Part shown: positions 8,987-62,039 of the stretch, piece after piece
Numbering within the stretch: the first letter of the stretch is position 1
Layout of the letters: every line of letters begins with the position of its first letter
Assembly: GCA_945910005.1 (NCBI GenBank)
Contig: OX246745.1
Span: 43,470,751-43,534,750, forward strand
Direction of reading: 5' to 3'
Source: Isoperla grammatica
Lineage: Eukaryota; Arthropoda; Insecta; Plecoptera; Perlodidae
DNA length: 64,000 nt
Translations under genes and position numbers: made by a program
The notes under the pieces: generated by a model
Seen by the model: only the letters and a program-made list of their open reading frames with translations
What the model was told of the DNA's origin: nothing
The model's database searches: none

Positions 8987-11900
8987 GTAAGCCTGCAAGT
9001 ATACATGTGCAATAAACTGATACTCAGTCTGTGTTATTCCATCTAATAGTTAGCCATACAAGAAATACAGTCATAACATTAATGTTCAAATCTTAGTTTT
9101 GGCTCCGTAACACCAACGAGTAATGTCGCTGTAAGTGTAGGAAGTACATTTAGTAGAGATCCGAGTAAATGGTTTTATTTGTGGGACAAATTCGTTTTTA
9201 AAAATTAAAAATTAGGTTTTAAGTGTTTCTAAAAAGTGGAAAATTTGGAGTTATTATGGTTTTATTTTTAAGCGAGTCAAAAGTTAAAGGTCGCCGGTTC
9301 GATTCCGGCCACCGGCAATTCTGACTGAAGGTTTTTCCGAGGTATTCCTCAGTCGTTACGACAAATGCTGAGGTAGAGTCCTAATTACAGTCCTCGGGCA
9401 TTCCTTCCTAACTATCCAAATACCCTAACATACCTAGTTAGTCACCTGATGAGGGGTACATCAGCTAAAGCTAGTGTGCACCCTATAACAGGGATTCCTA
9501 CAAAAAATAAATTGATATTATACTAACATTTGGGCCTAACCAGCCTGCTATAATTGTTTTCATATTTTCATAGTTAAGGTTAACTTGAAGCCTAAATGAA
9601 GCCCTAGACATAACACCCTATGGTAGGCCTACTTCACTGGGAAGAACAACTTGTATTGGATTTTTGCTGCATTTTTTAAATGAAATGGTTGAACTGCCAG
9701 CGACGTTGGACAAACAAATTCTTCTGAAGTCGGCGCCAACCACGCAGAGAGCGACTAAGAGCGGTGATTAAACCGTTTTTTGACAATTGCAGTGTATTTA
9801 AATGGTGATATTGCCATATGTAGTTATTTTGTGTTTCAATATAGATTTTGGTGTTATTGCTCAGTTAATGGCAAAGTAGATGTTATTTCGTGATTCAATA
9901 TATGTATTTTCGGGTCCACGGTCAAACAATTCGTCCACATTTTGTATCAAAAACACAACATTTTACATTTCGTTTTAAAAAATAAAACCATTTACTCGGG
10001 TCTCTAACTATTAGTCTTAAAACACAAGATGCTTATTTAAAAAGTATTAAAATCAATATTTTAAATTATGTGAAGCTACAAATTTTGCCATTTCCTCTCT
10101 CCTACACTAATATTTTCCAACATTCACCAGCATGATTCTTCTGTCTTCAGCGTATGTTCATGGAATAGAAACACTTCTTTTAGTCTTGCAACAGCTTAGA
10201 TGACTTTCAACTTCCCTCATATACAGGTTACTCTTGTTTACACACCTAGTTTTGCTCCGAGAATCAGTTTCACCCTTAGCGACTGCATGCTAAGAGTTAC
10301 GTATTGAAGTAGAGGACTCTGACATCAAGGTTTATCCCGACAGATACCGCACCGAAGAGAGTCCGACATGGGCCAACTTGCCGGCCGTCAAGGGGCATGA
10401 AGCAGAGGTTGCGGACATGACTCCCGGAGAGAGATACCTGATTCAAGTCAACACCGTCAGCTACGGGGTAGAGAGTAGCCACCCTCAGCAACTCAACCAC
10501 ACTGTCCGTGAGTAGCTTGTTATGTGTAGGAAGCATAACATGTTAACATTACAGGCTAAGAGGAGAGAGATACCTGATTCAAGTCAACACCGTCAGCTAC
10601 GGGGTAGAGAGTAGCCACCCTCAGCAACTCAACCACACTGTCCGTGAGTAGCTTGTTATGTGTAGGAAGCATAACATGTTAACATTACAGGCTAAGAGGG
10701 GAGAGATACCTGATTCAAGTCAACACCGTCAGCTACGGGGTAGAGAGTAGCCACCCTCAGCAACTCAACCACACTGTCCGTGAGTAGCTTGTTATGTGTA
10801 GGAAGCATAACATGTTAACATTACAGGCTAAGAGGGGAGAGATACCTGATTCAAGTCAACACCGTCAGCTACGGGGTAGAGAGTAGCCACCCTCAGCAAC
10901 TCAACCACACTGTCCGTGAGTAGCTTGTTATGTGTAGGAAGCATAACATGTTAACATTACGGGCTAAGAGGAGAGAGATACCTGATTCAAGTCAACACCG
11001 TCAGCTACGGGGTAGAGAGTAGCCACCCTCAGCAACTCAACCACACTGTCCGTGAGTAGCTTGTTATGTGTAGGAAGCATAACATGTTAACATTACAGGC
11101 TAAGAGGGGAGAGATACCTGATTCAAGTCAACACCGTCAGCTACGGGGTAGAGAGTAGCCACCCTCAGCAACTCAACCACACTGTCCGTGAGTAGCTTGT
11201 TATGTGTAGGAAGCATAACATGTTAACATTACGGGCTAAGACAATCTCATGAACCTCACCGTATTAGAAAACTAAGAAATCTTTATGCAGACTGGGATAA
11301 AAAGGCTTGGGATTCTGGGTTTGGGGGGGGCGTGGCGCAGCTGGGCCTGGGGCAAAGCCCCAGCCGCCAGAGGCAAATACGCCAAAGGGGTAAAAAAAAT
11401 TTTGGGGTTGCATTGAATTTTTGGCCTAAAATAAAATATGATTTTAGGTAAGGCTGGGCATCGATGTAAATCGACAACATCGACATCGACGACAAATAAT
11501 CGATGTCAAATCGCGATGTCGGAATATTTTCGACATCGACATCGAAACGAAAATAATCGACATCGTTTTTTTTTAAATTGATAATTAATCAATTATTAAT
11601 AAAAAAAAACGCATTTCACTAACCGGTTAATCGAACCAGTTTTTAATCAGTTAATAACGGCAACAAAACTCAGTTTTCGTCTGCAACGGGAGATAACTGA
11701 CCTAGGCCTAGGCTAGGCCTTCTAGGCCTACGTGACGGCCATGCGGGCCGGTCAGCTTATTTTTGTCGTCATAAACACAAATTGTGGATATTGATTTCAA
11801 TTTATTTTAACGCAATATCCGTTTGTAGAGGCTTATTCAAGTCGTTTTTCATTAATCCGTTCTTGATTACTTGCTGCGTAGTGAACTGTCAACAGGCGGC

Positions 11901-14900
11901 CGCTTGCATTCCACTCGCCTGCGTCTATCGCGATCTCGCTTCCACTCACGCGTCCTGCGACTAGCGCTTTCTCTCTCTCTCACGGCGGTCGATAGCAGCT
12001 GACACGGCGAACTACTTCGTCGCGTCTCGCTCAGACCATTGTTCTCTCGCTCTTTCTCGTTCGGCCGCATCTTTTCTCACTTGCCGAGTGCCAGCCTGAA
12101 CCAAGGGATGGCTCGCGCTTTAGTTTGGGGGGGGGGGGCTTGAGAGTGTGCGGTATCCTTTGATACGGGTCAGTTTGGACTAAAAGCGGCCGTGGACGAA
12201 TAACTATGCCGCCCCGGCATAGATTAAAGTTCCTATTTCTCGCGTGAATTGATAATTGATTAGTTATTTAATTAATTGACGAAAAAATCGATTACGGTAT
12301 AACAAAAAAAATCGATGTCGAAAATCGTCACCGACATCGATTATTAATCGGTTAATCGATGTCGACGCCCAGCCTTAATTTTAGGGCGCGATTAACGGAG
12401 GCCACCCTACCAGTAGCAAAATAATTTCCATTATATTCAATTAATTACAATGAATATTTACAATAAATATTAAAATTAATTCAATTATAATTTCAAATAA
12501 TACTTATAAAGTGGGGTTAAGATTTTTTTTTGCAATATACAGAGAAGTATTTATATCATAGGAACTTTCTGGTGGCAGCCCGGGGGCCCGGACTCGGGCT
12601 CGGATTTGCCCAGGGGCCCGGGATGCGATCGCATCCCAGCATCCCTAGCCAGTCCGCGCCCATGGTCTAAGGATATCCTAGGTCTGGCACTCCCGCGCGC
12701 CCGATCTCGTCCGGCCCGCGCATAACGTCACGTGGATACAAGATCGCTGGCCGGCTGCCGCTTCGCGCGTGTTAAAATGCTACTCTCCTCCACTGATTAA
12801 ATATCTATCGTCAAAATTAAAGTCGTATTTGAATGTGTTTGTTATATGATTACTAACAATGCATTATATAAGTGGATAGAAATATTAGCTCAGTAGAAAC
12901 TACTATAATATTAGGCGTACAGTGGTAACATGAAGACATGACCGATAAACACATCTTTGCGTGATTATGTGTCATGTGAAAGTGATAAAACCGTTACAGC
13001 AACATTAAACACACAATACGCATTTTGTAGGTAAATATATAGTTACACCAAACACATTTTAGCTGGAATTATTTCGCTTTAGCATTGTCATTTTATTCGT
13101 ACCCAGAGTTACGCCTAATTCTACGTCAGTTATGATTCGTACCATTTTATAATATTGCGTATTATTATATAACGCTTACACGGGCCAAGATTCCGGTACG
13201 GTACTGGACTAAAGCCCCAGCCACAATTTTTGGCATCGTGTTCGTAATCGTTTTCGTGATTGCAATCGTACAATTTCCCATTACAATCAATTACGACGTT
13301 ACGATTTAGTTGTGAACAGTGCCATAAGAACCACGTAAGTTAACTTTTTTACCATTTCCGACTTGGGATCCCGATCTCGATACCGAAAATTGTGTTTAAG
13401 AGGCGTGGTTAGGCCCATGTAAACGTAGCACATAATAAGTGGTTAGGAGGCGTGGTTAGGCCCATGTAAACGTAGCACGTAATAAGTGGTTAGGAGGCAT
13501 GGTTAGGCCCATGTATACGTAGCACATAATAAGTGGTTAGGAGGCATGGTTAGGCCCATGTAAACGTAGCACGTAATAAGGGGTTAGGAGGCATGGTTAG
13601 GCCCATGTAAACGTAGCACATAATAAGTGGTTAGGAGGCATGGTTAGGCCCATGTAAACGTAGCACATAATAAGTGGTTAGGAGGCATGGTTAGGCCCAT
13701 GTAAACGTAGCACATAATAAGTGGTTAGGAGGCGTGGTTAGGCCCATGTAAACGTAGCACGTAATAAGTGGTTAGGAGGCATGGTTAGGCCCATGTAAAC
13801 GTAGCACGTAATAAGTGGTTAGGAGGCATGGTTAGGCCCATGTAAACGTAGCACGTAATAAGTGGTTAGGAGGCATGGTTAGGCCCATGTAAACGTAGCA
13901 CGTAATAAGTGGTTAGGAGGCATGGTTAGGCCCATGTAAACGTAGCACGTAATAAGGGGTTAGGAGGCATGGTTAGGCCCATGTAAACGTAGCACATAAT
14001 AAGTGGTTAGGAGGCATGGTTAGGCCCATGTAAACGTAGCACATAATAAGTGGTTAGGAGGCATGGTTAGGCCCATGTAAACGTAGCACGTAATAAGTGG
14101 TTAGGAGGCATGGTTAGGCCCATGTAAACGTAGCACGTAATAAGTGGTTAGGAGGCATGGTTAGGCCCATGTAAACGTAGCACATAATAAGTGGTTAGGA
14201 GGCATGGTTAGGCCCATGTAAACGTAGCACATAATAAGGTCTACACTGTACAGTATAACGTCACATCACATAGTCAGTACATTTCATTTGTAAACTGTTC
14301 AATCAAATACGAATTATAATGTGATTGCGTGCTGGCTTTAAATACGAGCGTAAATGCAAATTCAAATACGGTGGTTTTTCCTTCTAGATATTACGTGTAA
14401 ATAATATTAGGTGTTTGGAGGTGATGTTCATCAAGACCTGATAACGCGAATCAATTGGAAGTTTTAAATTACATTGAATATGCCAATAAATTAAAAATAA
14501 CAATAACATCATTGAAACTTAATTGAACCAGATGAGATGACGGCATTGCTTTGACTATAGGCCTATAGCTGTAGCTTACTGTTCTGCAATACAAAATAAT
14601 AACGTTAATATATTTAGAGAATGCTTTATGTGGGTGCCTTTATGCCTTTATGGAGATGTTCGTATATGGCAGTCAGTAACAATATTATTCTGTTATATTT
14701 GACTTACCATGGTGAAGACTCGACTTCTCTATGTTATAGTTTTTTTTTCTACTTTGGGTATTGAGCCTTGTACCTCCGTGGCAATTTGCGAAGCCGACAT
14801 TAGTTTTGAGACGCATCCTGGTTTGACTTTTCGGGATTTGTTTGGTGAATAACCCAACAATTAACTTGTATTTTAAATCCCAATGAAAATCAGAGAGTTC

Positions 14901-17900
14901 AAAATGTTCAGAACAATCAACAAATTCTACAATTCTTTCAATTGTATTTGTCAGACCCTTTACAAAATCGAACCCAAACTAAGCACAATCCTTTATAATT
15001 AGGGAATCTAAAAAAATAAATTGTATTTATCCGTCGGCAGTCGGCACTCTGTAAATCGCTTTGTTTGGTAGGGCTTCTGTTGTTACATCCACTCACCACA
15101 CCATCATCATTATTAGTATTTTTAACTGTAGAGTACATTACTACATAATAATGTATTTAAAAAATATATAAAAAGCTTTTACGAACGAAGCATACGAATA
15201 AACAGTTGCTTAACGCTGTACAAACGTGGAGAACCAACTGTGTAGGTCAAAATATGCAAATAGTATCACATCACGTCACACTTATTAATATCTATAAAAA
15301 AAAAAGTTCATGTTATAATATCGGAACTTTTAATTGACAAAGTACGTCTAAAATAACACTTTTATAAAAGTTAATTACTTTTTTATATTCTTCCGGAACT
15401 AAGCACTTTGGGTAGAAAATTCTACTTTTTAAACACTCAAATCAAACACACTGAAAACTGTTTTCAATATCTTTGTAGTATCTACACTCAACGAGACGTT
15501 TGGACACGACTCCTTGCACATTGGAAGCAGACGACACACTACTGAGAGGTCCAGATACGGCCAGTGAGAAAAGTTTATAAACACTTGTGGAAGTAAGCAA
15601 TCGTAATAAAGTTATGATGACTTGGCGAGAATAATGCTATCGTAAAAAGGTTTCGAACTAACAAGGATCGAGCGAACATAACCGAGAGTAGTTTTGTGTG
15701 CGTGTTTATTTACGGAATTGAGTATCGGTATCAAGAAAATGCAATGTAATAGTTCTGTTGTGGCAATATTACTGATATCTGAAGAAGATTATAAGTTGTC
15801 ACCAACACGGCAACCATAAACAAAGTGCGAGGATTTGAAATATGAGTATTTAGTCAAGAACAGAGACAGTATTCATTGATTAGTGATTACCCCTGTCAGT
15901 AACTCAGAGCGGAGCCCTGAATGCGAGCACTTGACTCGTGCGCTGGGCGATTCTTGTATCCACGTGACGTCACGAGCGGGCCGGCTGCCGCTAGCATCTG
16001 CGCAATGTCATACCTAGCCCACACAGTAATATCACTGTATCATGGTCCGCGCCTGTCTTCATGAGACCTAACGAGTGATCATGAGACAAGTTGTTACGTG
16101 ACAATGTTATGCACCAGTATGTTGGGTCTTTTAGTCACCTTGTATGGGAGGCAGAGCTATCTGGGGCCTATTCTACCCTGGACCCAGATGGGGCGATGGG
16201 AATAGAAGTGAAACAATCATTAATGTTGGCCTATGCTTAAATGCACGATATAATTATGAGTCCTCTAAACTTCGGGCTCATTAAGATTGTCAACTCTGTT
16301 TATTGAGAACAGGGCCAAATATTATAATTTAAAAAATTAGCTCCAAATATTTGCCTTACGAATTAGCCTAATAGAGGAATCATAATTCAATCATTGGTTC
16401 CATATTATTTTCTATTAATCATCTGAAATTTATATTATAACCTACCGAGCACAGCAGGTTAGATCGTCTCATCGTTATCGTAATTTAAGTGGAAATAGTT
16501 GCAATGTATTATTACTGTCAGCTGAAGAGTATCCTTGTTTTCCAGGTCCAAACCCCGTGACAAACATCGCCCCCCTCGTGGACTCGAACAACGTGACCTT
16601 GGAGTGGCCTCGTCCGGAAGGTCGGATCGAGCGCTACTTTGTGAGTTGGCAGTCGGAAGATATTGCCGAGCGACCCGGGGCCAAGAACGTGACCGAGGCA
16701 AACATGTCCGGCTCGGAAGGACAGACGGTCAGAGTTCTGATCCAAGACCTCGTCCCGGGGATAAAGTATCACCTCGGTATTTACACACAGTCCTACAACC
16801 TGGAGTCCGACGTTACGCACCTGCCCACTAGAACAAGTACGTGGGACATTATGTAACATATGTACCGGAATAATATCGGCAACACTCGTACAAAGTCGAG
16901 CCACTTGGTCAGCGCTAATCTTAAGCCAGTCGACAAGGCTGTTCCTGGCATGGCTGACACGTGATGCACATCTAGTGGTAGTAACTCATGGAAAAATGTA
17001 AATTATTTTGTTTTTGTCACAAGATGTGGGAGAAACTAATAAGATGTCGTATCATAGGTACCCTAAAGATATTTTCACATTGTTCTTGATTGAGGAAATG
17101 TGCCCCAAACTCGAGTAGGTAATCTATTATTATCTATAATACGTATCTACTGTATGGATCCCAAGAAGTCAGTTCCTTGTGAGTGAGTAGCTGTGTCAGA
17201 CATGAACTTTGACACTATACAAGTGCAGGGCTTCAATTTTAAATTATTTATCACTCGCCCAATGGGCAAGTGAGGTTTCTAATTTACAAGTCTGAACAGC
17301 AAAACACTAGTCGTACCATTTCCTTATCTTGTGTTAATGTGTTAGATTGCCTAACGGCTAGGGGAGAAGGACAGGAGGGCCTGACGTGGCCTTGATCACC
17401 CCAGGAAGGTGGGCTTCGTCGGGTGATCAAGGCCACGTCAGGCCGAAACTGTCTCGACGTTTTGTGTAAACATCTTTGTGTTTCTATCGACTCCAAAGGC
17501 CGCAACTACTACAAGGTGTACAGTGTGATATCGCTGTGTTTGTGTGCGCAGTGCCGCTGATTCAGTCCGAGGTGGTTGTGGTCAACAACCCAGTGTGATA
17601 TCGCTGTGTTTGTGTGCGCAGTGCCGCTGATTCAGTCCGAGGTGGTTGTGGTCAACAACCCAGTGTGATATCGCTGTGTTTGTGTGCGCAGTGCCGCTGA
17701 TTCAGTCCGAGGTGGTTGTGGTCAACAACCCAGTGTGATATCGCTGTGTTTGTGTGCGCAGTGCCGCTGATTCAGTCCGAGGTGGTTGTGGTCAACAACC
17801 CCCAGATGACCGACACCATCGCACTACGATACACCCCCACGCCGCAGGGCTCCTCTAGGTTTGACCTGTACCGCTTCAGTCTGTCTGACTCGTCTGTGGT

Positions 17901-20900
17901 GGTGTTGGAGAAGGCAGCCAATGATACGGACCAGAAGGTGACCTTCACCGGTCTGACACCGGGCCGGCTGTACAATATCACCGTCTGGACGGTATCGGAC
18001 GGTGTTCTCAGCCAGCCGCTGCAGAGGCAGGATCGACTGTGTAAGTTGTATTAACCCTTTTGCTGCGGAGAGCCCCTTCGGTCCAAGTAGGAAAATAACC
18101 ATTGGATGTGAAATTCGAGTTTAGTTTACGAGTCTAGAAGGCTAACGGGCGATGTTCGACTCAAGTCGCCGTGTTTCTAAAAGTTCATTTTTACCCCTAG
18201 ATCGCAGCAGCATGCATGTATGTATGTATATAGCACTATGCATGTATTTTTGGTATGTTTTACCTATTCTTTTTGACTTTGAAAAATCACACAATGAAAA
18301 TAATGTTTGAAACATTAAAAATTAAATTCTGTGTTGTGGGGAACAAAAATGTTTTAGGTCAAACAAAATTATTTTATTTTTGGGATGTTTTTTTAGTTAT
18401 TTTCCAGACATAGAGGAGTTTTTAATGACATAGCAAAAGGGTTAAGAAAATCAACAAATTTGTTGGATGCTTAACTATGCAACTAAAATGTTTTTCCTCA
18501 GACCCCGAGCCCATCACCGGAATGAACGCGACCCTGATAACCGACACGGAGATAGTTCTGGGGTGGGATTCACCTCGCGGAGACCACGATGACTTTGAAG
18601 TGCAGCACCTCAACTCTGAGGGCAACCTCATCCAGAACCTGACTCGCTATAACACACTGACTCTGTCAGACTTGAAGCCTCATCGCAACTACACGTTCAC
18701 GGTGGTGGTTCGCTCCGGGACTGAGTCCTCGGTACTGAGGAGGTCGCTACCGGTCTCCGCCATCTTTACCACCAGGGAGTCCAAACCTGGCAAGGTGAGA
18801 CATGCATATATCAACTCTGCAATCAACAGCCCTTTCAGAAAATACATATTTAATTTTTACCATTTTTTTTTTTTTACTTTGGTAAACTTGATTTTGAAAA
18901 TTTGTATAATTAATTGAATCATACAGATTTTCAACACCTTTTCGACTGCACCCATAAAATGTATATACAGTAATCCCCCTTTAATTCAAATTTCAAGGGA
19001 CCCTAAAAACTCCAATTTGATTTACAAAATTTTGAATTAAAAGAACATTAACATTAAGCACCATACCTAAATCTTCTGCTGGGACTCCATCAATAGTTTG
19101 AATTATACATAATTTTGAATTAACCGAGTTTGAATTAACGAGGGACTACTGTAATTAGTAGGTCTATATAACGGATTTTTTTTTTTTACTTTTTTTTTTT
19201 TTCAATTTCCAGGTAGATGCTCTTTCATTATCAAGCTTCCACTGTAATATCAGTTCTTTAGATGTTGCATTTACATTTCATCACTACTTTTAAAATGAAA
19301 TTGAAGGAATACTGTGCTTTCCAAAATGTCAATATCGTATGGCAACATCACATGTTCTGTCAGGTGGAGAAGTTCCATCCCGTGGATATCCAGCCTTCCG
19401 ACATCTCTCTGACATGTTAGTCTGTATGGGTGTATTGTGTCAGGTGGAGAAGTTCCATCCCGTGGATATCCAGCGTTCCGACATCTCACTGACATGTTAG
19501 TCTGTATGGGTGTATTGTGTCAGGCGGAGAAGTTCCATCCCGTGGATATCCAGCGTTCCGACATCTCACTGACATGTTAGTCTGTATGGGTGTATTGTGT
19601 CAGGTGGAGAAGTTCCATCCCGTGGATATCCAGCGTTCCGACATCTCACTGACATGTTAGTCTGTATGGGTGTATTGTGTCAGGTGGAGAAGTTCCATCC
19701 CGTGGATATCTAGCCTTCCGACATCTCTCTGACATGTTAGTCTGTATGGGTGTATTGTGTCAGGTGGAGAAGTTCCATCCCGTGGATATCCAGCGTTCCG
19801 ACATCTCACTGACATGTTAGTCTGTATGGGTGTATTGTGTCAGGTGGAGAAGTTCCATCCCGTGGATATCTAGCCTTCCGACATCTCACTGACATGTTAG
19901 TCTGTATGGGTGTATTGTGTCAGGTGGAGAAGTTCCATCCCGTGGATATCCAGCCTTCCGACATCTCACTGACATGTTAGTCTGTATGGGTGTATTGTGT
20001 CAGGTGGAGAAGTTCCATCCCGTGGATATCCAGCCTTCCGACATCTCTCTGACATGTTAGTCTGTATGGGTGTATTGTGTCAGGTGGAGAAGTTCCATCC
20101 CGTGGATATCTAGCCTTCCGACATCTCACTGACATGTTAGTCTGTATGGGTGTATTGTGTCAGGTGGAGAAGTTCCATCCCGTGGATATCTAGCCTTCCG
20201 ACATCTCACTGACATGTTAGTCTGTATGGGTGTATTGTGTCAGGTGGAGAAGTTCCATCCCGTGGATATCCAGCCTTCCGACATCTCACTGACATGTTAG
20301 TCTGTATGGGTGTATTGTGTCAGGTGGAGAAGTTCCATCCCGTGGATATCCAGCGTTCCGACATCTCACTGACATGTTAGTCTGTATGGGTGTATTGTGT
20401 CAGGTGGAGAAGTTCCATCCCGTGGATATCTAGCCTTCCGACATCTCACTGACATGTTAGTCTGTATGGGTGTATTGTGTCAGGTGGAGAAGTTCCATCC
20501 CGTGGATATCTAGCCTTCCGACATCTCACTGACATGTTAGTCTGTATGGGTGTATTGTGTCAGGTGGAGAAGTTCCATCCCGTGGATATCTAGCCTTCCG
20601 ACATCTCACTGACATGTTAGTCTGTATGGGTGTATTGTGTCAGGTGGAGAAGTTCCATCCCGTGGATATCCAGCCTTCCGACATCTCACTGACATGTTAG
20701 TCTGTATGGGTGTATTGTGTCAGGTGGAGAAGTTCCATCCCGTGGATATCCAGCCTTCCGACATATCTTTCGAGTGGGCACTGCCGATGAACGAGGCCAA
20801 TGGAATCATTACCAAGTTCCGTATCTCGTATGGTCTGGAAGGATCCACATACACTCAAGAGCGAGAGTTTGACTCCTGGGAGCTGCACGGGATACTGAAG

Positions 20901-21782
20901 AATCTTATTCCCGGCAAGACGTACATCTTCAACATTCAAGCTCAGACGCGTATCGGATACGGCCCGGAGGCTGTGTGGAAGCAGAAGATGCCAATATTAG
21001 GTAAGACCTTTTGATACAATATATTATGTTTTCATTGTTAGTAGCTGTATTTTGTAGATGTAGATTTATTAACCTCTAAGTCTACAGTATACACGATATA
21101 CATTGAATATTCATGTTGTCAGTTGTATAACGTATACAATATTTGCATCTGATTCTAGAGCATACACAATTACAATTTAATTTAATATACATAAGCAATA
21201 TTTACAGCATTATTAGGTATCTTATTTTAGAGGACATACACAATAACAAATAAATTCAAATTAAATAAAGTAAAAAGTCAATAGAAGGAACGCCATTACT
21301 ACGAAATCTTCATCAGCAAAAATTTGCTGTGGTCTATGTTTGTTTGTAATGTTATGTTATGTTTGATAAGTTTGTAATGTTAAATAATAGTCATTACAAC
21401 AAAAAGTCATGTTAACGAAATAATCATTTTAATCAACTCATTTTTTTGACCCTATAAACTATACTTCAACTATAAACTTTGCTAATATGTCGAGAATTTA
21501 TGACTTGAAAGCCAGTACTGGGTGGTTAAAGGGGTTCTCACGCGCTAGATTTATTTTTTACCATATGGTCTACTGCACTACACCAATCAATAATGAACCA
21601 TTAAACATCATTCATGAGTTTAAACCTGTGAATTGTTATTAATTAATGAAATTTCTTAACTGCCGCGGCGACTGTTGCACGAGCGTGGTGTTAGCCGGCT
21701 TTTGCTGCAGCTGTACTCCGCTCGATACAGCATAGCAGACCGCGTTCATTGCGCATGCGTTGACTATTTCCCCTCCCAATAC

Positions 21783-21818
<36 letters not shown>

Positions 21819-24800
21819 GGTGTACGGGTGAAGCTTTACCCCTCCTCCGAGTATCGTGTGACTCTACGTGCCGATGGGCACAGCAACGCTCAAAACGAAA
21901 TGCAACACCCGATTACACATCTTTATTTTGTACCTGAACGGAAGCTCCGATTACAAAACCAAAATATACGAAATACGCAGAAAAGAAAGACGCAGCGAAA
22001 AGTATTACATCATTTTTTTTTGGAGCAGAATCCTCCAAGGTCCCAAGGCATACAGGTTGTCCCAATGCTATTTCTTATGGGAGATTTTCGCCGATGGGAC
22101 CTAGCTTGAAAATTACTAACTTTGATATTTTTTCCCAGGTTATGGTGAACCCGATTTTTTTTTTCTTTTAGTCACTTATTTCATAGCTAATTAGCTCCAG
22201 TTAAACATATATTTTGGTTTAGCGGGTGAGAACCCCTTTAAAGTTATTTCGTCACCAGCTTGTAATGAGTCCAATTGACTTCACGGGCTCCCGCACCTGT
22301 TGGAGATGCGATGGTATGAAATGCAGAACAGCCTCACTGAATACCAGCTGGAAAGTATTTATAATGTAGGCGAGACTTTCTACCAACTATTACCTGAATC
22401 AAAATGACCATTAAGGGAGACCGGTGCAAAGACAGAAAGAAATTGAAACCGCCAAAGCAACGGGAACGAATAAGCTTAAGCCATTAATAATGGGAAGAGC
22501 CCAAAATCCGCGATGTTTAACCAGTTCCGTGGTCATGACGAGATATTACGTCACGCCCGTAATATCCCCGTAGCGCCTTGGACGTAATATCTCGTCATGA
22601 GTATTTTGAAATCGCTTCCACAGTGGCCGTGACGAGTCTCGCTTTAAAATTTTCCCTCATTCTCTGCAAGGAAGTTAGTTCAATCTTTTCCCGCTAGATA
22701 GAACTACTTGTATTGAAATTCTGTCAGCAACACGTGTTTCTAGAGAAGGAGGAAACCATGCTCTGATTTGCTAGCGACAGTGGTTAGCAATGGCGTCCGC
22801 TTCGAGAGCAAAGACACGTGTTAGAGCTAAGAGGATATTGAAGATATTATTGGTGATGATAGTGGTAGTGAACTTAGTGATCTTGAAAGTGAAAGTGAAT
22901 ATGAAAGTGCTACAGATGTGGAAGTAACTGACAGTGACATTGCGTCTAATGTGTCGGTTTCGGACAACTCAAGTGACGATGATGTAGGTGGAGCTCAACA
23001 AGGAAGGTGGTCCCAAGTGGGGGCGTTGCGACCACGTTTCCCTTTTATTGGTTTGCCTGGTGTCAATGTTACAATTGATGACCCCAGTGACCCAATTGAA
23101 TATTTTGAGTTGTTTGACTCTTGCGATGCGAAAACCACCCAACCCGACCGCGTGCGAGCTGGGTGAGGAATTAAGTCGCCACTACGCGCACGGCAAGCGC
23201 GAGGGAAAGTCGCCACTGAACTGGTTAAAAAAAAAAAAACGCCTGGCATCCGATTATAAAGCGAATACAAAGACGTGGTTGACTTCAAAAGTTTTTAAAG
23301 ATTGATTACTACAAAAAGGCAAGGGTTCTTCTAAAGAAAATAAATCTGTGCGGGCACGGTTTTTTCAATATTTTTTGTACTATGGATAATTGTTCGGCAC
23401 ATAGTGATGTGGTCTGAAGAATGTGAAGGTGGTATTTTTATCACGTAACTACTACATCAATCTTGCAACCCTTGGACCAGGGTATCATAAGATCCGTGAA
23501 GGGCAAGAACAGACATCGGATGGAGAGAATCCTAGTGAACATACGCATGAAGGACAAACCCACTCAAAAAGACCTGCACGAAGCCATAGAAATGTCGTGA
23601 CGAACTGTTGGTGTAATGCTGGCTTGGTGTACCCCCCAGTGGAGGGGGAAGACACCCAGCCAAGTCAACCAAGTGGAAGAGAATTGTTTATGTCGAGGTT
23701 CCGTGACATGGTAGACCCAACATGCCTGACGTGACAGGCTTGCGACCTGCAGAGGCAAAGCACGCTCGCTCGCGGAAGCTGCTTTTACAACCTGGGGGTC
23801 GTGGATCTAATTTTTACCAAAATAAGATGATTGATCATTTTAACGAAATAATAGGGTATCCCCTGGTGTTTGTTGTAATGACTTTTGACTGTATAATATA
23901 AATAATCAATATTTTCAATATTGACAACATTTCTAAAGCATCCTAGAATGTGTTGAAGTCATGTATGGTACATTGACTGGTAAAGTATGATAAGTTTCTA
24001 TGTGGTAGCAACAAGGAATTGAACCGAGTACTTTCTTCCAGCACCTCCTAGGCCGTCCAGCCAAGTAGTTCCCACGGAAGTGTGTCGTAGCTCCACAACG
24101 ATCCAGATTCGGTTCCGCAAGAACTACTTCTCCGAGCAGAACGGAGCCGTGACTGGCTACACGATCGTCGTGGCAGAAGACGATAGCAAGAACGCTTCCG
24201 GTCTAGAGATGCCCAGCTGGAGAGACGTGCAGGCCTACAGCGTGTGGCCACCATATCAGGTAGGCAATAGATGCTCTGAGGGGTGACGCATGTTAGTGTA
24301 CGCTACACGATAGCAAGAACGCTTCCGGTCTAGAGATGCCCAGCTGGAGAGACGTGCAGGCCAACAGCGTGTGGCCACCATATCAGGTAGGCAATAGATG
24401 CTCTGAGGGGTGACGCATGTTAGTGTACGCTACACGATAGCAAGAACGCTTCCGGTCTAGAGATGCCCAGCTGGAGAGACGTGCAGGCCTACAGCGTGTG
24501 GCCACCATATCAGGTAGGCAATAGATGCTCTGAGGGGTGACGCATGTTAGTGTACGCTACACGATAGCAAGAACGCTTCCGGTCTAGAGATGCCCAGCTG
24601 GAGAGACGTGCAGGCGTACAGCGTGTGGCCACCATATCAGGTAGGCAATAGATGCTCTGAGGGGTGACGCATGTTAGTGTACGCTACACGATAGCAAGAA
24701 CGCTTCCGGTCTAGAGATGCCCAGCTGGAGAGACGTGCAGGCGTACAGCGTGTGGCCACCATATCAGGTAGGCAATAGATGCTCTGAGGGGTGACGCATG

Positions 24801-27800
24801 TTAGTGTACGCTACACGATAGCAAGAACGCTTCCGGTCTAGAGATGCCCAGCTGGAGAGACGTGCAGGCGTACAGCGTGTGGCCACCATATCAGGTAGGC
24901 AATAGATGCTCTGAGGGGTGACGCATGTTAGTGTACGCTACACGATAGCAAGAACGCTTCCGGTCTAGAGATGCCCAGCTGGAGAGACGTGCAGGCCTAC
25001 AGCGTGTGGCCACCATATCAGGTAGGCAATAGATGCTCTGAGGGGTGACGCATGTTAGTGTACGCTACACGATAGCAAGAACGCTTCCGGTCTAGAGATG
25101 CCCAGCTGGAGAGACGTGCAGGCCAACAGCGTGTGGCCACCATATCAGGTAGGCAATAGATGCTCTGAGGGGTGACGCATGTTAGTGTACGCTACACGAT
25201 AGCAAGAACGCTTCCGGTCTAGAGATGCCCAGCTGGAGAGACGTGCAGGCGTACAGCGTGTGGCCACCATATCAGGTAGGCAATAGATGCTCTGAGGGGT
25301 GACGCATGTTAGTGTACGCTACACGATAGCAAGAACGCTTCCAGTCTAGAGATGCCCAGCTGGAGAGACGTGCAGGCCTACAGCGTGTGGCCACCATATC
25401 AGGTAGGCAATAGATGCTCTGAGGGGTGACGCATGTTAGTGTACGCTACACGATAGCAAGAACGCTTCCGGTCTAGAGATGCCCAGCTGGAGAGACGTGC
25501 AGGCCTACAGCGTGTGGCCACCATATCAGGTAGGCAATAGATGCTCTGAGGGGTGACGCATGTTAGTGTACGCTACACGATAGCAAGAACGCTTCCAGTC
25601 TAGAGATGCCCAGCTGGAGAGACGTGCAGGCCTACAGCGTGTGGCCACCATATCAGGTAGGCAATAGATGCTCTGAGGGGTGACGCATGTTAGTGTACGC
25701 TACACGATAGCAAGAACGCTTCCGGTCTAGAGATGCCCAGCTGGAGAGACGTGCAGGCGTACAGCGTGTGGCCACCATATCAGGTAGGCAATAGATGCTC
25801 TGAGGGGTGACGCATGTTAGTGTACGCTACACGATAGCAAGAACGCTTCCGGTCTAGAGATGCCCAGCTGGAGAGACGTGCAGGCGTACAGCGTGTGGCC
25901 ACCATATCAGGTAGGCAATAGATGCTCTGAGGGGTGACGCATGTTAGTGTACGCTACACGATAGCAAGAACGCTTCCGGTCTAGAGATGCCCAGCTGGAG
26001 AGACCTGCAGGCCTACAGCGTGTGGCCACCATATCAGGTAGGCAATAGATGCTCTGAGGGGTGACGCATGTTAGTGTACGCTACACGATAGCAAGAACGC
26101 TTCCAGTCCAGAGATGCCCAGCTGGAGAGACGTGCAGGCCAACAGCGTGTGGCCACCATATCAGGTAGGCAATAGATGCTCTGAGGGGTGACGCATGTTA
26201 GTGTACGCTACACGATAGCAAGAACGCTTCCAGTCTAGAGATGCCCAGCTGGAGAGACGTGCAGGCCTACAGCGTGTGGCCACCATATCAGGTAGGCAAT
26301 AGATGCTCTGAGGGGTGACGCATGTTAGTGTACGCTACACGATAGCAAGAACGCTTCCGGTCTAGAGATGCCCAGCTGGAGAGACGTGCAGGCCTACAGC
26401 GTGTGGCCACCATATCAGGTAGGCAATAGATGCTCTGAGGGGTGACGCATGTTAGTGTACGCTACACGATAGCAAGAACGCTTCCGGTCTAGAGATGCCC
26501 AGCTGGAGAGACGTGCAGGCGTACAGCGTGTGGCCACCATATCAGGTAGGCAATAGATGCTCTGAGGGGTGACGCATGTTAGTGTACGCTACACGATAGC
26601 AAGAACGCTTCCGGTCTAGAGATGCCCAGCTGGAGAGACGTGCAGGCGTACAGCGTGTGGCCACCATATCAGGTAGGCAATAGATGCTCTGAGGGGTGAC
26701 GCATGTTAGTGTACGCTACACGATAGCAAGAACGCTTCCGGTCTAGAGATGCCCAGCTGGAGAGACGTGCAGGCGTACAGCGTGTGGCCACCATATCAGG
26801 TAGGCAATAGATGCTCTGAGGGGTGACGCATGTTAGTGTACGCTACACGATAGCAAGAACGCTTCCGGTCTAGAGATGCCCAGCTGGAGAGACGTGCAGG
26901 CGTACAGCGTGTGGCCACCATATCAGGTAGGCAATAGATGCTCTGAGGGGTGACGCATGTTAGTGTACGCTACACGATAGCAAGAACGCTTCCGGTCTAG
27001 AGATGCCCAGCTGGAGAGACGTGCAGGCGTACAGCGTGTGGCCACCATATCAGGTAGGCAATAGATGCTCTGAGGGGTGACGCATGTTAGTGTACGCTAC
27101 ACGATAGCAAGAACGCTTCCGGTCTAGAGATGCCCAGCTGGAGAGACGTGCAGGCCTACAGCGTGTGGCCACCATATCAGGTAGGCAATAGATGCTCTGA
27201 GGGGTGACGCATGTTAGTGTACGCTACACGATAGCAAGAACGCTTCCGGTCTAGAGATGCCCAGCTGGAGAGACGTGCAGGCCTACAGCGTGTGGCCACC
27301 ATATCAGGTAGGCAATAGATGCTCTGAGGGGTGACGCATGTTAGTGTACGCTACACGATAGCAAGAACGCTTCCGGTCTAGAGATGCCCAGCTGGAGAGA
27401 CGTGCAGGCGTACAGCGTGTGGCCACCATATCAGGTAGGCAATAGATGCTCTGAGGGGTGACGCATGTTAGTGTACGCTACACGATAGCAAGAACGCTTC
27501 CGGTCTAGAGATGCCCAGCTGGAGAGACGTGCAGGCCTACAGCGTGTGGCCACCATATCAGGTAGGCAATAGATGCTCTGAGGGGTGACGCATGTTAGTG
27601 TACGCTACACGATAGCAAGAACGCTTCCGGTCTAGAGATGCCCAGCTGGAGAGACGTGCAGGCGTACAGCGTGTGGCCACCATATCAGGTAGGCAATAGA
27701 TGCTCTGAGGGGTGACGCATGTTAGTGTACGCTACACGATAGCAAGAACGCTTCCGGTCTAGAGATGCCCAGCTGGAGAGACGTGCAGGCCTACAGCGTG

Positions 27801-30800
27801 TGGCCACCATATCAGGTAGGCAATAGATGCTCTGAGGGGTGACGCATGTTAGTGTACGCTACACGATAGCAAGAACGCTTCCAGTCTAGAGATGCCCAGC
27901 TGGAGAGACGTGCAGGCCTACAGCGTGTGGCCACCATATCAGGTAGGCAATAGATGCTCTGAGGGGTGACGCATGTTAGTGTACGCTACACGATAGCAAG
28001 AACGCTTCCGGTCTAGAGATGCCCAGCTGGAGAGACGTGCAGGCCTACAGCGTGTGGCCACCATATCAGGTAGGCAATAGATGCTCTGAGGGGTGACGCA
28101 TGTTAGTGTACGCTACACGATAGCAAGAACGCTTCCAGTCTAGAGATGCCCAGCTGGAGAGACGTGCAGGCCTACAGCGTGTGGCCACCATATCAGGTAG
28201 GCAATAGATGCTCTGAGGGGTGACGCATGTTAGTGTACGCTACACGATAGCAAGAACGCTTCCAGTCTAGAGATGCCCAGCTGGAGAGACGTGCAGGCCT
28301 ACAGCGTGTGGCCACCATATCAGGTAGGCAATAGATGCTCTGAGGGGTGACGCATGTTAGTGTACGCTACACGATAGCAAGAACGCTTCCAGTCTAGAGA
28401 TGCCCAGCTGGAGAGACGTGCAGGCGTACAGCGTGTGGCCACCATATCAGGTAGGCAATAGATGCTCTGAGGGGTGACGCATGTTAGTGTACGCTACACG
28501 ATAGCAAGAACGCTTCCAGTCTAGAGATGCCCAGCTGGAGAGACGTGCAGGCGTACAGCGTGTGGCCACCATATCAGGTAGGCAATAGATGCTCTGAGGG
28601 GTGACGCATGTTAGTGTACGCTACACGATAGCAAGAACGCTTCCGGTCTAGAGATGCCCAGCTGGAGAGACGTGCAGGCCTACAGCGTGTGGCCACCATA
28701 TCAGGTAGGCAATAGATGCTCTGAGGGGTGACGCATGTTAGTGTACGCTACACGATAGCAAGAACGCTTCCGGTCTAGAGATGCCCAGCTGGAGAGACGT
28801 GCAGGCCTACAGCGTGTGGCCACCATATCAGGTAGGCAATAGATGCTCTGAGGGGTGACGCATGTTAGTGTACGCTACACGATAGCAAGAACGCTTCCGG
28901 TCTAGAGATGCCCAGCTGGAGAGACCTGCAGGCCTACAGCGTGTGGCCACCATATCAGGTAGGCAATAGATGCTAATGAAACAAACACCATAAACACCAT
29001 AATGGCAAAATTAAAAAATGTAACTTTAGTCCCCGGCCTTCCTCGCAATAATCCTAGGTCTCCTCCTGATCATGGCTTCACAAAGTCTATGTTTTGACAG
29101 AGGGTTGAACACAAACACAATGTTTAGTTAATTATTAATTCTGCTAATGACTAGTCTGGTGATGTCTCGAGTGTTGTAGATATAGTGACTGTGATAATGT
29201 ATTAATCTTGTTATCTTCAGGTGATGGAGCCATATTATCCGTTCCGTAACTCCAGCGTTGAAGACTTCACCATTGGGGGAGAGACGTGCGAAGGTCGTCT
29301 GGTGGGCTATTGTAACGGCCCTCTCAAGTCTGGCTCCACGTACCGAGTGAAAGTACGAGCCTTCACAGCTGCAGACAAGTTCACAGACACCTACTATTCC
29401 TTCCCTATACAAACAGGTAAAACAATACTTTGTCTAATACCTAAAGATGGGAGTTAACCTTTCAAACGACATTCCTCATAACGACAATTTCACGCTTATT
29501 ACGTCAATCCCCATAAGAGCAATGTTCATTTGAATTCATTACGACGTTTCTCATTAGCACATTTTCACGCTATGGACTGTTCTCTCCGTCCCGCCGTGCG
29601 TTTCTCGAGCACCATCGTTGGTGGAGAAGTGACAGCCGAGGATCAAGTAGACAGCCAGTTTGGGAAGCATGTGTTCTGTACTGCGGTCTTGTTCGATTCT
29701 ATTTCCGTTATGACACCCGCTTTTTTCTTGGCCCCCCCCCCCAAAAATGTCGTAACAAAATTGGATCTATAACAAAAAATCAAAACATGTACCGATTTTA
29801 AGGAAATGCATTTTTGTACTCATATAAAATGTTTTTTACAAAATTTAGTTGAATTTTTTTACCAGTTTTATGGCTGGACTGTCTCTATTGTTTCTAACTG
29901 TGTGCATGGATGTTGCAGACACAGACAACACTGCCGTAGTGGTGGGTGTGACTGTCCCGCTGGCCATATTGCTCGTGCTCTTGGTAGTGGTGTTTGTCTT
30001 GAGGAAACGGAGGTCGGCGTGGAGGACAACGGAGGCCAGAGCTAACGACACCCTCTCTCTGCCAGACAGCGTCATTGAAACCAGGTAACTCACTATTCTC
30101 TTCATTAGATCAATTTTTTCAATCAATCAATTTCCAATCTCGCAATATCGACCGAGACTTTAACATTCTTTGTGAATTTCAAGCGATTCTCGAGATCAAG
30201 TATAACGACATCTTGCTAAAAATTCTTCCAAATTGGTTACTGAGGCTCACAAAAAATGGAAATTGCTTGTACCTTGGAATTAACTTTACATTACTGCCAA
30301 CTCTTAAAGAACTACACCTTTGACTTACAAATAACAAGCAGATCCAAAGCCCGTAATCACATATTCGAGAGTGTTAGTTGAGCAAGCATCTTACGGACAT
30401 CACTGCTTGAGCTTCGGGAGCTGCTCTACTTAATGAAAGCTTAACTTAGCGACTGCTCTAATCACTTAAAGACACTTAGCAACAACTTAGGACACTGAGT
30501 GGATAGAACACTTAGGTCCAAATGCATAGTCGCTTCCTCACGTGCTCCTTAACTCAGCCTTAACTCGGCCTTACCTCAGCCGCGACTAACGAATGGAATT
30601 CATGAACCTTCCTCACGCTCGACTCAGCTGAGGAAAAGCTAGTGTCATTGTTAGACTTGGCAACATTGTATAGCCTATGGCCACCTTGATTCAAAATTGT
30701 TTCCATTTTACAAGGCAGTGACCTGTTGTTTATTCAAATAATACGGCGGCAACTATAAAGACACTTGTCAACCACTTCGCGACCTTGAAATAAGGCATTA

Positions 30801-32075
30801 TTTATTAATTATATACTTATTTACTTATTTATCTATTAATTTATTTTGTATCTATATAATTATGTATTTATTTATTTGTTATTTATTTATTTACTAGCGA
30901 GTACCCGGCATGCGTTGCAATGCCACTGAATGGAATGCACTAAGATGTAAATCAGTGTGCATTGTTCGTCTGGCTTGAGCATTGTGAACTCGGACACTTT
31001 CGAGTCTTGCTTCCCGTTGTTCGTCTGTTTCACACGATCTGGCTTGAGCATTGTGAACTCGGACGGTTTCGAGTCTTGCTTCCCGTTGTTCGTCTGTTTC
31101 ACACGATCTGGCTTGAGCATTGTGAACTCGGACGGTTTCGAGTCTTGCTTCCCGTTGCTCGTCTGTTTCTGATGCTCGTGATGCTCTTTTCTTTCTTGCT
31201 TGAGGTGTAGATCGACCGATATTGTTTCGTTTGGGTGGCATAATTGAATTAACAGCGAATTAAGTTTATTACATTAAACGCAAAAAAATGGTCAGTCACG
31301 TGAACTCCTTCTCATTGGATAAACTATGGATTCGAATGTGACCAACCCAGGTACCAAACGTAACTAAGTAAACATCTATAGTTCACAACGAACACACGCA
31401 AACTGTGTCACAACGATTTGACACCGACTCTACCGGTGTTTATGTGCCTGTGTGGCTAGTAGGTATAGTACACGATAAGTCATCCTTCCCCGTAAAATAA
31501 TACAAATACATGTACCAACTTTCATGGTGATATGTCCAACGGTGTCGAAGTCAATTCATTGGTGAGCCCTCTTTGCAAGCACCGATCACCACGTGGGGAA
31601 GTTACAGCAAAATGGATAGCATAGAAACCTTCCCCGTGAAAAAATACATATAAGTGCAAAGTTTCATGGTGATATGTCCAACGGTGTCGAAGTCAATTCA
31701 TTGGTGAGCCCTCTTTGCAGGCACCGATCACCACGTGGGGAAGTTACAGCAAAATGGATAGCATAGAAACCTTCCCCGTGAAAAAATACATATAAGTGCA
31801 AAGTTTCATGGTGATATGTACCAGCGGTGTCGAAGTCAATTCATCGGTGAGCCCTCTTTGCAGGCACCGATCACCACGTGCAAAACCAAAATGGATAGCA
31901 TAGAAACCTTCCCCGTGAAAAAATACATATATGTGCCAAGTTTCATGGAGATCGGATGAATGGTTTAGTAATGTATAAAGGACATAGGCCCTACATACAT
32001 ACATCTTTCTTTTATGTATATAGATTTATTTTATTAGGCCTATTTATTTGTTCATTTATTCATTTATTTATGTAT

Positions 32076-35200: not shown

Positions 35201-38200
35201 AGGTTAGCCCCGCCTACCGCAGGCTTCTTGAAAATGTCAACAGCAGACAGCTGACACTTCGAGGTCTCACGTTTGGTTGCAGTTTGGATCGAGTAAGTAA
35301 TTGAGGGGCAACGAAGAGTGTTCCGATAATAATCTTCCAAACTACTCTAAAAATAAGCTTTTACGAAATTATTACTTTCCATTCACAAAGTATGTGCCAA
35401 ACTCGAGGTTGGTTAGGTTAGCCCTAGGACCCTAGTCATCTGCTCATAGGCCTAGGCCTAGGCCTACCATGGCCTACCTGCCCGTGGTTCGATTTGTCTT
35501 TGGTATCACATTCCGTCAGGAAGACAAGTGTGTTTATGCGCTATATTGGCATCTGTCGAAAATTAGCTGGGAAGTGTCAATTGAAGAGGTTTTGAGAAGC
35601 CATGGACACATTGCTCTGCAGGCGGAGCCCTAGGGCCTACCCTTTCGTACTCTAAAGGCATAGGGAACACATATTACTCTTAGTAATGTTTTCAGTGTCA
35701 TTGTGTCTTGATATCGGTAATAGGTGATCATAAATAATATTACAAGCTAAATCAGTCGAACACGAGCGTCAGATAAAACGCCGCTTCATTTCCCCCACGT
35801 GAAATTAACTTCTGTCAAACATCTGTCAAACACGAAACGGCAATAAAAACAACTGACCATCAACTGACGAAGAACACGTCAAGTATCCTAGCAACACACA
35901 GAATGTCAGTGCGAAGTAAACATTGCGAACGCCACCTATATGTGCTGTGAAGGCTGTGCGATACGCTTGGCAACATTGTACAGCCATCGCCTGCCCGTCT
36001 TCGTACAACGTTGTCTAACTTCGTGGTAGCGCGAGCTTCACCATAGCTCGGTTGGCTCAATTTGCGTAGATGTTGCAAGCAGCATTGTGTAGACATTCGG
36101 ATAACTTGCTACAGTTTAAATTGTATCAAATACTGGATCTTACAAAAATTATCATAAAGAAACAAATAATTCACGGTTAATCCGATACCCTTATTATTGG
36201 GTAATATAACATAGGGAATAAATGGGAGCATATTCTAGGCCAACATTTCTATTTTACATGTTATTTTCCTATCCCGTGAAAACAAGCTTGAACCGGAAGT
36301 AGTTACTTTTTGGCGCACTTGCATTCCCTATAGGCCCTACATAACAACCTTGGCAGTTTTCTGTACCTAGCCTACTCTATTCACATAAGCCTAAAGTTGG
36401 ATAAGTGATCCGTTGCATCATTATTTTACTAGTCAAAGCACGTATGTCTAGGCTAGGCCTAAAGTTCTCTGAGGAATGTGGCAATCAACATGAGTTGAGT
36501 GCAAACTAGGCCTACTGGCCACTGGCCAGGCCAGGCCACGCTGGGATAGGCTCTAAACCTAGGCCTAGGAGGCATAACTTCAGTCTTCAATCTTGTGCCC
36601 AGGCCTAGGACCACACTCACTAACGATGTCTATTTGAAATAGGATAGGTAGACCTACCTAGTCGATGATGTCTAGGCTTGGGCTAGGCCTAGGACCGTAT
36701 ATTTTACATAGCCCACACAGCAACCTTTGGCGAGGCCTGAGGGCCGTAGGATAGGGCTAGGCCTAGATGTAGGTTATATCCAGTTAGTAGACAAATATAT
36801 TTACAACGCACCTGAAATCTTCTGCTTACGTAAAATATTAAATTCATTTAAAAACTGGTTCAATTCGGAATCTCGATTGTCCTAGGCCTATGAGCGAAGT
36901 CCGGGCCGCCTTCGCCACAGTTTCATCGCAAAACGGTAAAATATATTGAATGCACCATAACGAAATCTTCCAGTAGGTTCTCATATCTCTTAAATAGCTT
37001 CTCGTTCCCTCTGGTACGGCCTTTTCGTAAAGATCTACTGCTAATCTCTGTAAAAAGTACGCCATCTCAACACATTTGCCGTGAGCGCCGCCATTGAAAT
37101 TGAAACAAGCACAGCTGTGAGATGTTATGATTTTGGAGCGCTGTGATTGGCTAAGTTTTTGCTGAGGTGGGGCGGAGGAAGACTCAAGCCCTCCTCAGCG
37201 TGATGACGATGTGAGGTCGAGGTAAGGAAGAGCTGAGGAGGTGTTTGCTTCCTTGCATGGGGCTCTCACGACTCAGGTCTTCCTTTTCTCAGATCTGAGG
37301 AAAGGAAGAGCTAAAGAAGGTATATGCATTTGGACCTTAGAAACAAGCAAAAGACACTGAATAGACACTAAGCTAAAAGACACTTAGCAACAACTTAGGA
37401 CACTGAGTGGAAAGAACACTTAGCGACAAGCAAAAGACACTGAATAGACACTAAGCTAAAAGACACTTAGCAACAACTTAGGACACTGAGTGGAAAGAAC
37501 ACTTAGCGACAAGCAAAAGACACTGAATAGACACTAAGCTAAAAGACACTTAGCAACAACTTAGGACACTGAGTGGAAAGAACACTTAGCGACAAGCAAA
37601 AGACACTGAATAGACACTAAGCTAAAAGACACTTAGCAACAACTTAGGACACTGAGTGGAAAGAACACTTAGCGACAAGCAAAAGACACTGAATAGACAC
37701 TAAGCTAAAAGACACCTAGCAACAACTTAGGACACTGAGTGGAAAGAACACTTAGCGACAAGGAAAAGACACTGAATAGACACTAAGCTAAAACACACTT
37801 AGCAACAACTTAGGACACTGAGTGGAAAGAACACTTAGCGACAAGCAAAAGACACTGAATAGACACTAAGCTAAAAGACACTTAGCAACAACTTAGGACA
37901 CTGAGTGGAAAGAACACTTAGCGACAAGCAAAAGACACTGAATAGACACTAAGCTAAAAGACACTTAGCAACAACTTAGGACACTGAGTGGAAAGAACAC
38001 TTAGCGACAAGCAAAAGACACTGAATAGACACTAAGCTAAAAGACACTTAGCAACAACTTAGGACACTGAGTGGAAAGAACACTTAGCGACAAGCAAAAG
38101 ACACTGAATAGACACTACGCTAAAAGACACTTAGCAACAACTTAGGACACTGAGTGGAAAGAACACTTAGCGACAAGCAAAAGACACTGAATAGACACTA

Positions 38201-57566: not shown

Positions 57567-57571
57567 AATAT

Positions 57572-57727: not shown

Positions 57728-57728
57728 T

Positions 57729-57739
57729 TGGCGACGAGG
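57729..57739 (+). other. Primer-binding site
   Basis: TGGCGACGAGG, one base after the LTR. It is the exact complement of the 3' end CCTCGTCGCCA expected of a tRNA-Ser(GCT), whose 5' end in animals is GACGAGG. Confidence 0.8.
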
Positions 57740-62038: not shown

Positions 62039-62039
62039 T

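Follow-up and report, generated by a model that had tools for sequence, protein, structure and literature searches.

The Ptp10D gene and its exons

The stretch of DNA analysed here, called the window, comprises 64,000 nucleotides of Isoperla grammatica (Plecoptera), bases 43,470,751-43,534,750 of contig C2; the assembly totals 874 Mb in 603 contigs (among them C1, C2, C6, C7, C14 and C15, cited below). On the + strand of the window lies the 3' portion of a gene for a receptor tyrosine phosphatase, in which tandem arrays repeatedly copy the boundaries between exons and introns. The in-window exons, 14 in number, were set by homology to insect Ptp10D and give 971 residues with FN3 domains and a PTP catalytic domain. 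The encoded protein aligned in full (100% of its length) with insect Ptp10D, at identities of up to 80%, and matched the Ptp10D crystal chain 3s3e. Judged from this homology, the host gene is the insect Ptp10D receptor phosphatase. A FastTree tree without support values, built from the query and 38 of 120 relatives, put the query alone on a branch basal to the neopteran insects sampled. As read, the whole gene spans -51581..51937 in window coordinates, in which negative numbers lie upstream. The exons needed below are as follows (in-window numbering).

10344..10507, + strand: exon 2, donor GTGAGT; the start at 10344 was set from the frame
17762..18040, + strand: exon 4, from homology
20724..21000, + strand: exon 6, from homology
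24042..24259, + strand: exon 7, donor GTAGGC, from homology
41307-41559, 42306-42563, 43096-43244 and 43641-43876, + strand: exons 10-13, PTP catalytic domain
51906..51937, + strand: last coding exon with the stop, from frame and splice signal, not homology

Tandem arrays copy exon-intron junctions of Ptp10D

Arrays were called with Tandem Repeats Finder (TRF), and the array tests were restricted to periods of at least 40 bp. Four arrays in the window cross a splice junction.

10426..11241, + strand: 136-bp x 6.0 array, 99%, crosses the exon 2 donor; GT intact in 6/6
17521..17801, + strand: 70-bp x 4.0 array, 100%, crosses the exon 4 acceptor; AG intact in 4/4
about 19353..20767, + strand: 80-bp x ~17.7 array, 98%, crosses the exon 6 acceptor; AG intact in 17/17 full copies
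about 24178..28974, + strand: 127-bp x 37.8 array, 99%, crosses the exon 7 donor; GT intact in 37/37 full copies

The units at the two donors combine an exon tail with intron (82 bp of exon 2 and 54 bp of intron in the 136-bp unit; 82 bp of exon 7 and 45 bp of intron or filler in the 127-bp unit), and those at the two acceptors combine intron with an exon head (30 bp of intron end and 40 bp of exon 4 in the 70-bp unit; 36 bp of intron or filler and 44 bp of exon 6 in the 80-bp unit). The filler at the joints, measured by eye, is 30 bp long in the 80-bp array and 29 bp in the 127-bp array. An earlier note on this DNA had reported arrays at these same four junctions, with units unrelated in sequence; the TRF calls and the homology-placed exons bear out both statements, down to the exon numbers.

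Six other arrays of the in-window gene (period at least 40 bp) make contact with no known exon.

13392..14238, + strand: 47-bp x 18 array, within an intron, no known junction crossed
30969..31169, + strand: 69-bp x 2.9 array, intronic, no known junction
31484..31952, + strand: 142-bp x 3.3 array, intronic, no known junction
37336..41042, + strand: 83-bp x 44.7 array, intronic, no known junction
44115..46130, + strand: 145-bp x 13.9 array, intronic, no known junction
48573..49955, + strand: 173-bp x 8 array, intronic, no known junction

The earlier note had counted eight large arrays in the gene, which is true at 3.5 copies or more; the 69 x 2.9 and 142 x 3.3 arrays bring the tally to four junction arrays in ten. 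Exons 10-13 (41307..43876) were free of array contact by TRF.

As an out-of-sample test, 70 kb of sequence 5' of the window was taken in. The exon ends in this extension are accurate to about 5 bp. Three further junction arrays were found there.

-47455..-46639: 82-bp x 10 array, spans the acceptor of an exon placed near -46689
-44932..-13056: 130-bp x 245.7 array, 31.9 kb, begins in an exon and repeats the exon tail and donor CAG|GTATGA
-1717..-1052: 83-bp x 8 array, spans the acceptor of an exon placed near -1105

A fourth upstream array (154-bp x 4.8) crosses no known junction. Ptp10D thus contains seven junction arrays whose units are unrelated; four lie at acceptors and three at donors. 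The rows left out were a diverged pair (308 x 2.4 and 307 x 2.2) upstream of the first coding exon found, one 27-bp row, and, 3' of the last coding exon, a 68-bp array (55048-57154) and a 74-bp array (62418-63848). Arrays fill 50,025 of the 103,519 bases of the gene span, nearly half. The introns at -47576..-46690 and 24260..29220 would measure 152 and 291 bp if their arrays were collapsed to one unit, so that the arrays lengthen them approximately 6- and 17-fold. The pattern is real, independently repeated and larger than first noted. The arrays are minisatellites of the 'mirage' type known from lancelets (see below), with head-to-tail pieces of 70-160 bp that hold an exon edge, a splice site and 30-64 bp of intron or filler.

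Junction arrays exceed the chance expectation in Ptp10D

For the null expectation, one unit per array was placed at random on the gene, with the arrays collapsed to one copy. The observed numbers of junction arrays were 4/10 for the in-window gene (0.96 expected, P = 0.0105), 3/4 for the out-of-sample upstream part (0.38 expected, P = 0.003) and 7/14 for the whole gene (1.28 expected, P = 7e-5); when only arrays outside 10-29 kb were counted, 3/9 lay on a junction (0.89 expected, P = 0.049). In a genome rich in repeats some arrays are bound to land on junctions by chance, and two points fit this explanation: arrays cover nearly half of the gene, and the window alone gives P = 0.01 before correction for the look-elsewhere effect. 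However, the upstream result was obtained out of sample.

Composition could also draw arrays to exons, if minisatellites arise in any GC-rich DNA and exon edges are GC-rich islands in AT-rich introns. The GC content of the exons is 0.539 versus 0.397 outside them, and array units were richer in GC than intron windows even when they touched no junction (mean percentile 0.68, P = 0.03, n = 9). When placement was confined to windows of similar GC, in Ptp10D only, the expectation rose from 1.28 to 2.08, indicating that the GC richness of exons accounts for part of the excess. Nevertheless, the 7/14 observed still exceeded the GC-matched expectation (P = 0.0016). Since GC matching leaves an excess in Ptp10D, composition is not the whole story, and composition alone is a rather unlikely explanation.

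The exon-touching copy and variation among the splice-site copies

The splice signals are retained throughout the arrays counted: GT in 240/240, 37/37 and 6/6 copies, and AG in 17/17, 10/10 and 8/8. For the largest array the count covers 240 of about 246 copies. The consequence of splicing at an alternative copy was read from the translation. In the true frame, reading stayed open in 0/5 alternative copies for exon 2, 0/37 for exon 7, 0/3 for exon 4 and 0/16 for exon 6, and in all three frames it stayed open in 0/9 copies of the 82-bp array, 0/7 of the 83-bp array and 0/239 of the 130-bp array; every one of them brings a stop. Because all other tested copies introduce a stop, the full-length protein requires the copy that touches the exon. 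Pairing of the sites nearest across the exon predicts use of the same copy. Around the four in-window joins the query aligned without gaps to Periplaneta and Lycorma, which upholds the claim of the earlier note that the functional site is the exon-touching copy and that no frame is broken. The coding frames of Ptp10D are intact, each array extends into one intron, and the protein aligns to its relatives over 100% of its length.

The earlier note had raised the idea that decoy splice sites are selected for; selection might also favour regulated splicing, with the copies titrating factors or timing the intron. The intact GT or AG in all copies counted is in keeping with such selection. So are five smaller Ptp10D arrays, in which fewer columns were variable in the intron part than in the exon part (0/45 vs 6/82, 0/31 vs 7/51, 1/36 vs 4/44, 2/32 vs 11/51 and 1/54 vs 1/82). 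In the 240-copy array, however, 18 of 46 columns varied in the intron part and 34 of 84 in the exon part. Because the intron columns of this array vary as often as the exon columns, its unvaried GT is unremarkable and makes no good case for decoys. Considering also that every alternative copy tested brings a stop, the suggestion finds no good support, and we regard selection of this kind as highly improbable.

Distinct copies numbered 8/37 in the exon 7 array and 61/240 in the largest array, and the repeated identical copies suggest turnover of the arrays. Tandem copies can be invented or inflated by assembly; a lancelet mirage, that of BflGb6, is reported to have been aberrantly assembled in the draft genome (PMC3087553). 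Against an artefact of this sort stand the unique flanks, the intact coding frames, the 61 distinct copies in the largest array and the presence of arrays at unrelated genes on several contigs, and it is scarcely credible here.

Junction arrays in other genes

Outside the window, approximately 227 kb of the genome was covered. The FN3 sample consisted of the loci for 30 of 125 FN3 matches and eight 10-kb stretches, merged into 18 stretches of 132,480 bases. It is exon-dense since FN3 exons anchor it, and the junction number used is an assumption (100 to 265), not an annotation, intended to cover that density. Three of 11 rows were dropped by period (29 x 33.6, 38 x 3 and 35 x 2). Six of the eight arrays with a period of at least 40 bp were classed as junction-crossing.

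LAR-like gene: 144 x 4 array, donor
LAR-like gene: 157 x 4.8 array, acceptor
Ig gene, C1:14.12 Mb: 120 x 4 array, donor
Titin-like gene: 101-bp array, donor, inferred
Titin-like gene: diverged tract of roughly 60 bp (a 302-bp row treated as a 60-bp unit), donor
Ig gene at locus L052, 1272-1657 = C2:3147271-3147656: 193 bp x 2, 99%, whole exon duplicated

The 101-bp titin array also fills 900 bases beyond its locus, and its exon-touching end lies outside the sequence covered; the junction was assigned because every copy has a coding-like tail and a donor. The exons at loci L013, L018, L048, L052 and L035 are backed by Pfam and PDB matches, that at L018 under the Pfam cut-offs. At L052, one doubling of a whole Ig exon with both its splice sites, the copies 99% identical, may have produced a new exon pair.

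With 0.7-1.8 junction arrays expected, 6/8 corresponds to P 6.5e-6 to 0.0018. The range becomes 1.6e-4 to 0.015 if one titin array is uncounted (5/8) and 9e-5 to 0.009 if the diverged titin array is left out (5/7). When neither titin array is counted, 4/8 gives P 0.0025 to 0.079, the result in this sample that sits most easily with chance. Two random 10-kb windows held no array of period 25 or more, too little for a density estimate. Taken with the upstream extension of Ptp10D, the sample makes chance very unlikely, and the proposal of the earlier note that tandem expansion is focused at junctions stands above the placement null in Ptp10D and above expectation in this sample of other genes.

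Family scans, run without a control for arrays away from exons, looked across the genome for a single domain piece repeated at even intervals next to an exon. One array was found for the myosin head (at least 85 matches; 65/153 candidates scored), two for kinesin (at least 132 matches; 122/208), one for Ion_trans (at least 101 matches; 150/197) and one for Y_phosphatase (81 matches; 128/128). No array was found for ABC_tran (at least 20 matches; 19/532 candidates scored) or E1-E2_ATPase (18 matches; 38/38), nor for FN3 by the same assay (at least 125 matches; 150/291). Because arrays exist beside FN3 exons and none was detected in this way, the regular-spacing assay misses arrays. Four of the scan arrays were confirmed at the sequence level, all at acceptors.

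Myosin: 155 x 2.8 array, acceptor
Kinesin: 152 x 7 array, acceptor
Kinesin, second gene: 161 x 1.9 array, acceptor
Voltage-gated channel: 141 x 4.7 array, acceptor
PTP gene from the Y_phosphatase scan: 17 matches at an exact 135-bp spacing, known from spacing alone

The pattern recurs at ten gene loci, one of them (the PTP gene) only as regularly spaced matches. At the sequence level there are 17 arrays, seven in Ptp10D and ten elsewhere, distributed as seven donor, nine acceptor and one whole-exon. One splice site per unit was found in 16 of the 17, the exception being L052, and the arrays are accordingly not of the exon-duplication type.

Some scan matches are of another nature. Dispersed along contig C15, 33 similar kinesin matches end at positions 88-94 of the profile hidden Markov model (HMM), often as +/- pairs about 2 kb apart, and about 14 end near HMM 146-149; these matches (about 47, excluded from the count) are a repeated element that carries a kinesin fragment. 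Repeated matches to HMM 378-435 in the myosin scan, 0.5-1 kb apart at C1:33.475-33.479 Mb, were likewise excluded and are presumably the known Mhc alternative exons. At C7:32367464-32368534, overlapping Ion_trans matches crowd a single strand and may represent a further repeated exon piece.

Origin of the junction arrays

The explanation that we favour, at a probability of about 0.5 and with its mechanism unproven, is a staggered-break duplication biased to exon edges, tolerated by splicing and then expanded. Local tandem duplications would arise when staggered or paired-nick breaks are repaired, most readily in exon DNA that is GC-rich and transcribed. Those wholly within coding sequence, or damaging a splice site, would be lost, and those carrying the splice site outward into the intron would survive, since the spliceosome selects, on either side of the exon, the two sites lying closest to each other; the copy at the exon would thus serve as the splice site and the others would count as intron. 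Unequal exchange or conversion might then enlarge the tract to as many as 246 copies; the arrays would have no function of their own. Paired-nick breaks in mouse cells are reported to give tandem duplications, with templated inserts occasionally in end-joining-deficient cells (PMC5730883), and pairing of the nearest sites across the exon is reported for large introns (PMC9225289). The joints with short fillers agree with end joining of staggered breaks. Given that donor and acceptor ends are both affected, exon edges are indicated rather than a single splice-site factor.

Several observations weigh against this explanation. The Ptp10D excess survives GC matching (2.08 expected, 7 seen, P = 0.0016). 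A mechanism tied to the junction accounts for the uniform intron parts of 30-64 bp no less well. For two of the arrays the intron shrinks on collapse to 152 and 291 bp, a size at which exon definition was not necessarily in force at the outset. In addition, the five smaller arrays described above vary less in their intron parts than in their exon parts.

A junction-specific cause is the main rival. In its mechanistic form, R-loop edges, co-transcriptional nicks or nucleosome edges at exons would create true duplication hot-spots with the splice site as part of the target, which is possible, if unlikely. A broader statement, which we also hold only tentatively, is that exon-intron junctions act in their own right as mutational hot-spots where minisatellites are born. 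Breaks or nicks at exon edges, from transcription or splicing, with a near-fixed intron reach of about 30-64 bp, would seed arrays at donors and acceptors genome-wide, some growing into satellite-sized tracts of splice-site copies (32 kb) that the spliceosome ignores. The persistence of the excess after GC matching argues for a junction-tied mechanism, as does the clustering of the intron parts at 30-64 bp (11 arrays, four by eye; P = 0.007 and 0.0009 under a null of uniform placement), although this clustering was noticed post hoc. Five donor arrays also share exon parts of about 80-86 bp (two by eye), but in the two titin donors the exon part measures about 51 and about 20 bp. Moreover, donors and acceptors are both affected (7 donor, 9 acceptor and 1 whole-exon of 17), so that no single splicing step is marked, and the units have no common motif beyond GGAGAGA.

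Three other ideas were set aside. For a shared motif or mobile-element seed, CATGTTA-like words seemed by eye to recur, but k-mers in the 16 junction units (27 units in total) did not exceed shuffles, with the exceptions of GGAGAGA or its complement (7/16 junction units, against at most 5 in any of 40 shuffled sets) and CTCTCC (8/16, against at most 7). A fixed donor exon part of 82 bp fits exon 2 (82), exon 7 (82), the 130-bp array (84-86), LAR (~80) and L018 (~82), the last two by eye, but not the titin arrays, and the cases are too few. Closeness to a contig end (C2 measures 45.93 Mb, and the gene lies about 2.4 Mb from the end) is unneeded as a cause, since junction arrays occur at C1:14 Mb, C1:25.8 Mb, C6:15.7 Mb and C15:28.5 Mb. 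A junction array at C14:46.48 Mb again lies near a contig end (46.81 Mb), and an end effect may contribute.

Other elements in the window

Three further elements were seen by eye. At ~57566-62200 lies a long terminal repeat (LTR) retrotransposon-like element, whose gag/pol-like open stretch is flanked on either side by a direct repeat of about 165 bp. A segment of intron 6, ~22790-23800, resembles the start and fragments of a piggyBac-type transposase. At ~6220-6370, a near-perfect inverted repeat with arms of about 30-40 bp around GGCCCCTACACCTAGGGGC appears to be a fold-back element.

Comparison with known systems

If exon edges seed minisatellites genome-wide, the arrays would provide a natural experiment in splice-site choice, in which up to about 240 near-identical donors stand beside the one used, in conserved genes. 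They would also offer a dense set of cases from which to learn where tandem duplications begin relative to transcribed and spliced DNA, and whether mirages contribute to intron gain, as has been asked on the strength of a few lancelet genes. The pattern would then no longer be confined to lancelets.

Intron gain by internal tandem duplication (Rogers 1989; Gao and Lynch 2009) reportedly proceeds by doubling of a proto-splice site within an exon, from which a new intron arises. The arrays described here share with it the tandem duplication of a stretch with a splice signal within a gene; the difference is that an existing junction is copied into an existing intron.

In human segmental-duplication genes, internal tandem repeats at exon-intron boundaries have been linked to novel introns and alternative transcripts (PMC2812944). 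These too are minisatellite units at exon-intron boundaries, but they are reported to average 30 bp and to vary between paralogs, whereas the present units are 70-160 bp long and lie in conserved genes, where nothing points to new introns. Among the matches listed in a literature search of titles and abstract starts, with subscription papers mostly outside it, no insect case and no genome-wide excess was found.

The closest likeness is to lancelets, and the statement of the earlier note that no precedent was known does not hold, since lancelet mirages are of the same kind. Boundary-spanning repeats in two lancelet globin genes, called mirages after Adh3 (Canestro et al. 2002), have been proposed as a route to new introns, and reverse transcription PCR suggests that splicing of these genes is undisturbed (PMC3087553); mirages of PGBD5 were added in another report, which cites troponin C (PMC3902484). 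As described there, and as in Ptp10D, each head-to-tail unit takes in a portion of exon, the splice site and adjoining intron, on the donor or the acceptor side. Reported unit sizes are 10-72 bp for Adh3, 150-160 bp for the globins BflGb6 and BflGb9, and 60 and 108 bp for PGBD5. The arrays described here likewise have units that span an exon-intron boundary, with AG or GT kept in many copies; in lancelets the signal is reported in many, not all, copies, and in Ptp10D it is kept in all copies counted. The lancelet arrays are reported with 2-7 copies, compared with up to 246 over 32 kb here. The present host is an insect, with seven such arrays in one gene and a measured excess over a placement null. 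The kind of array is thus already known from lancelets, and what is new is the insect setting and the scale.

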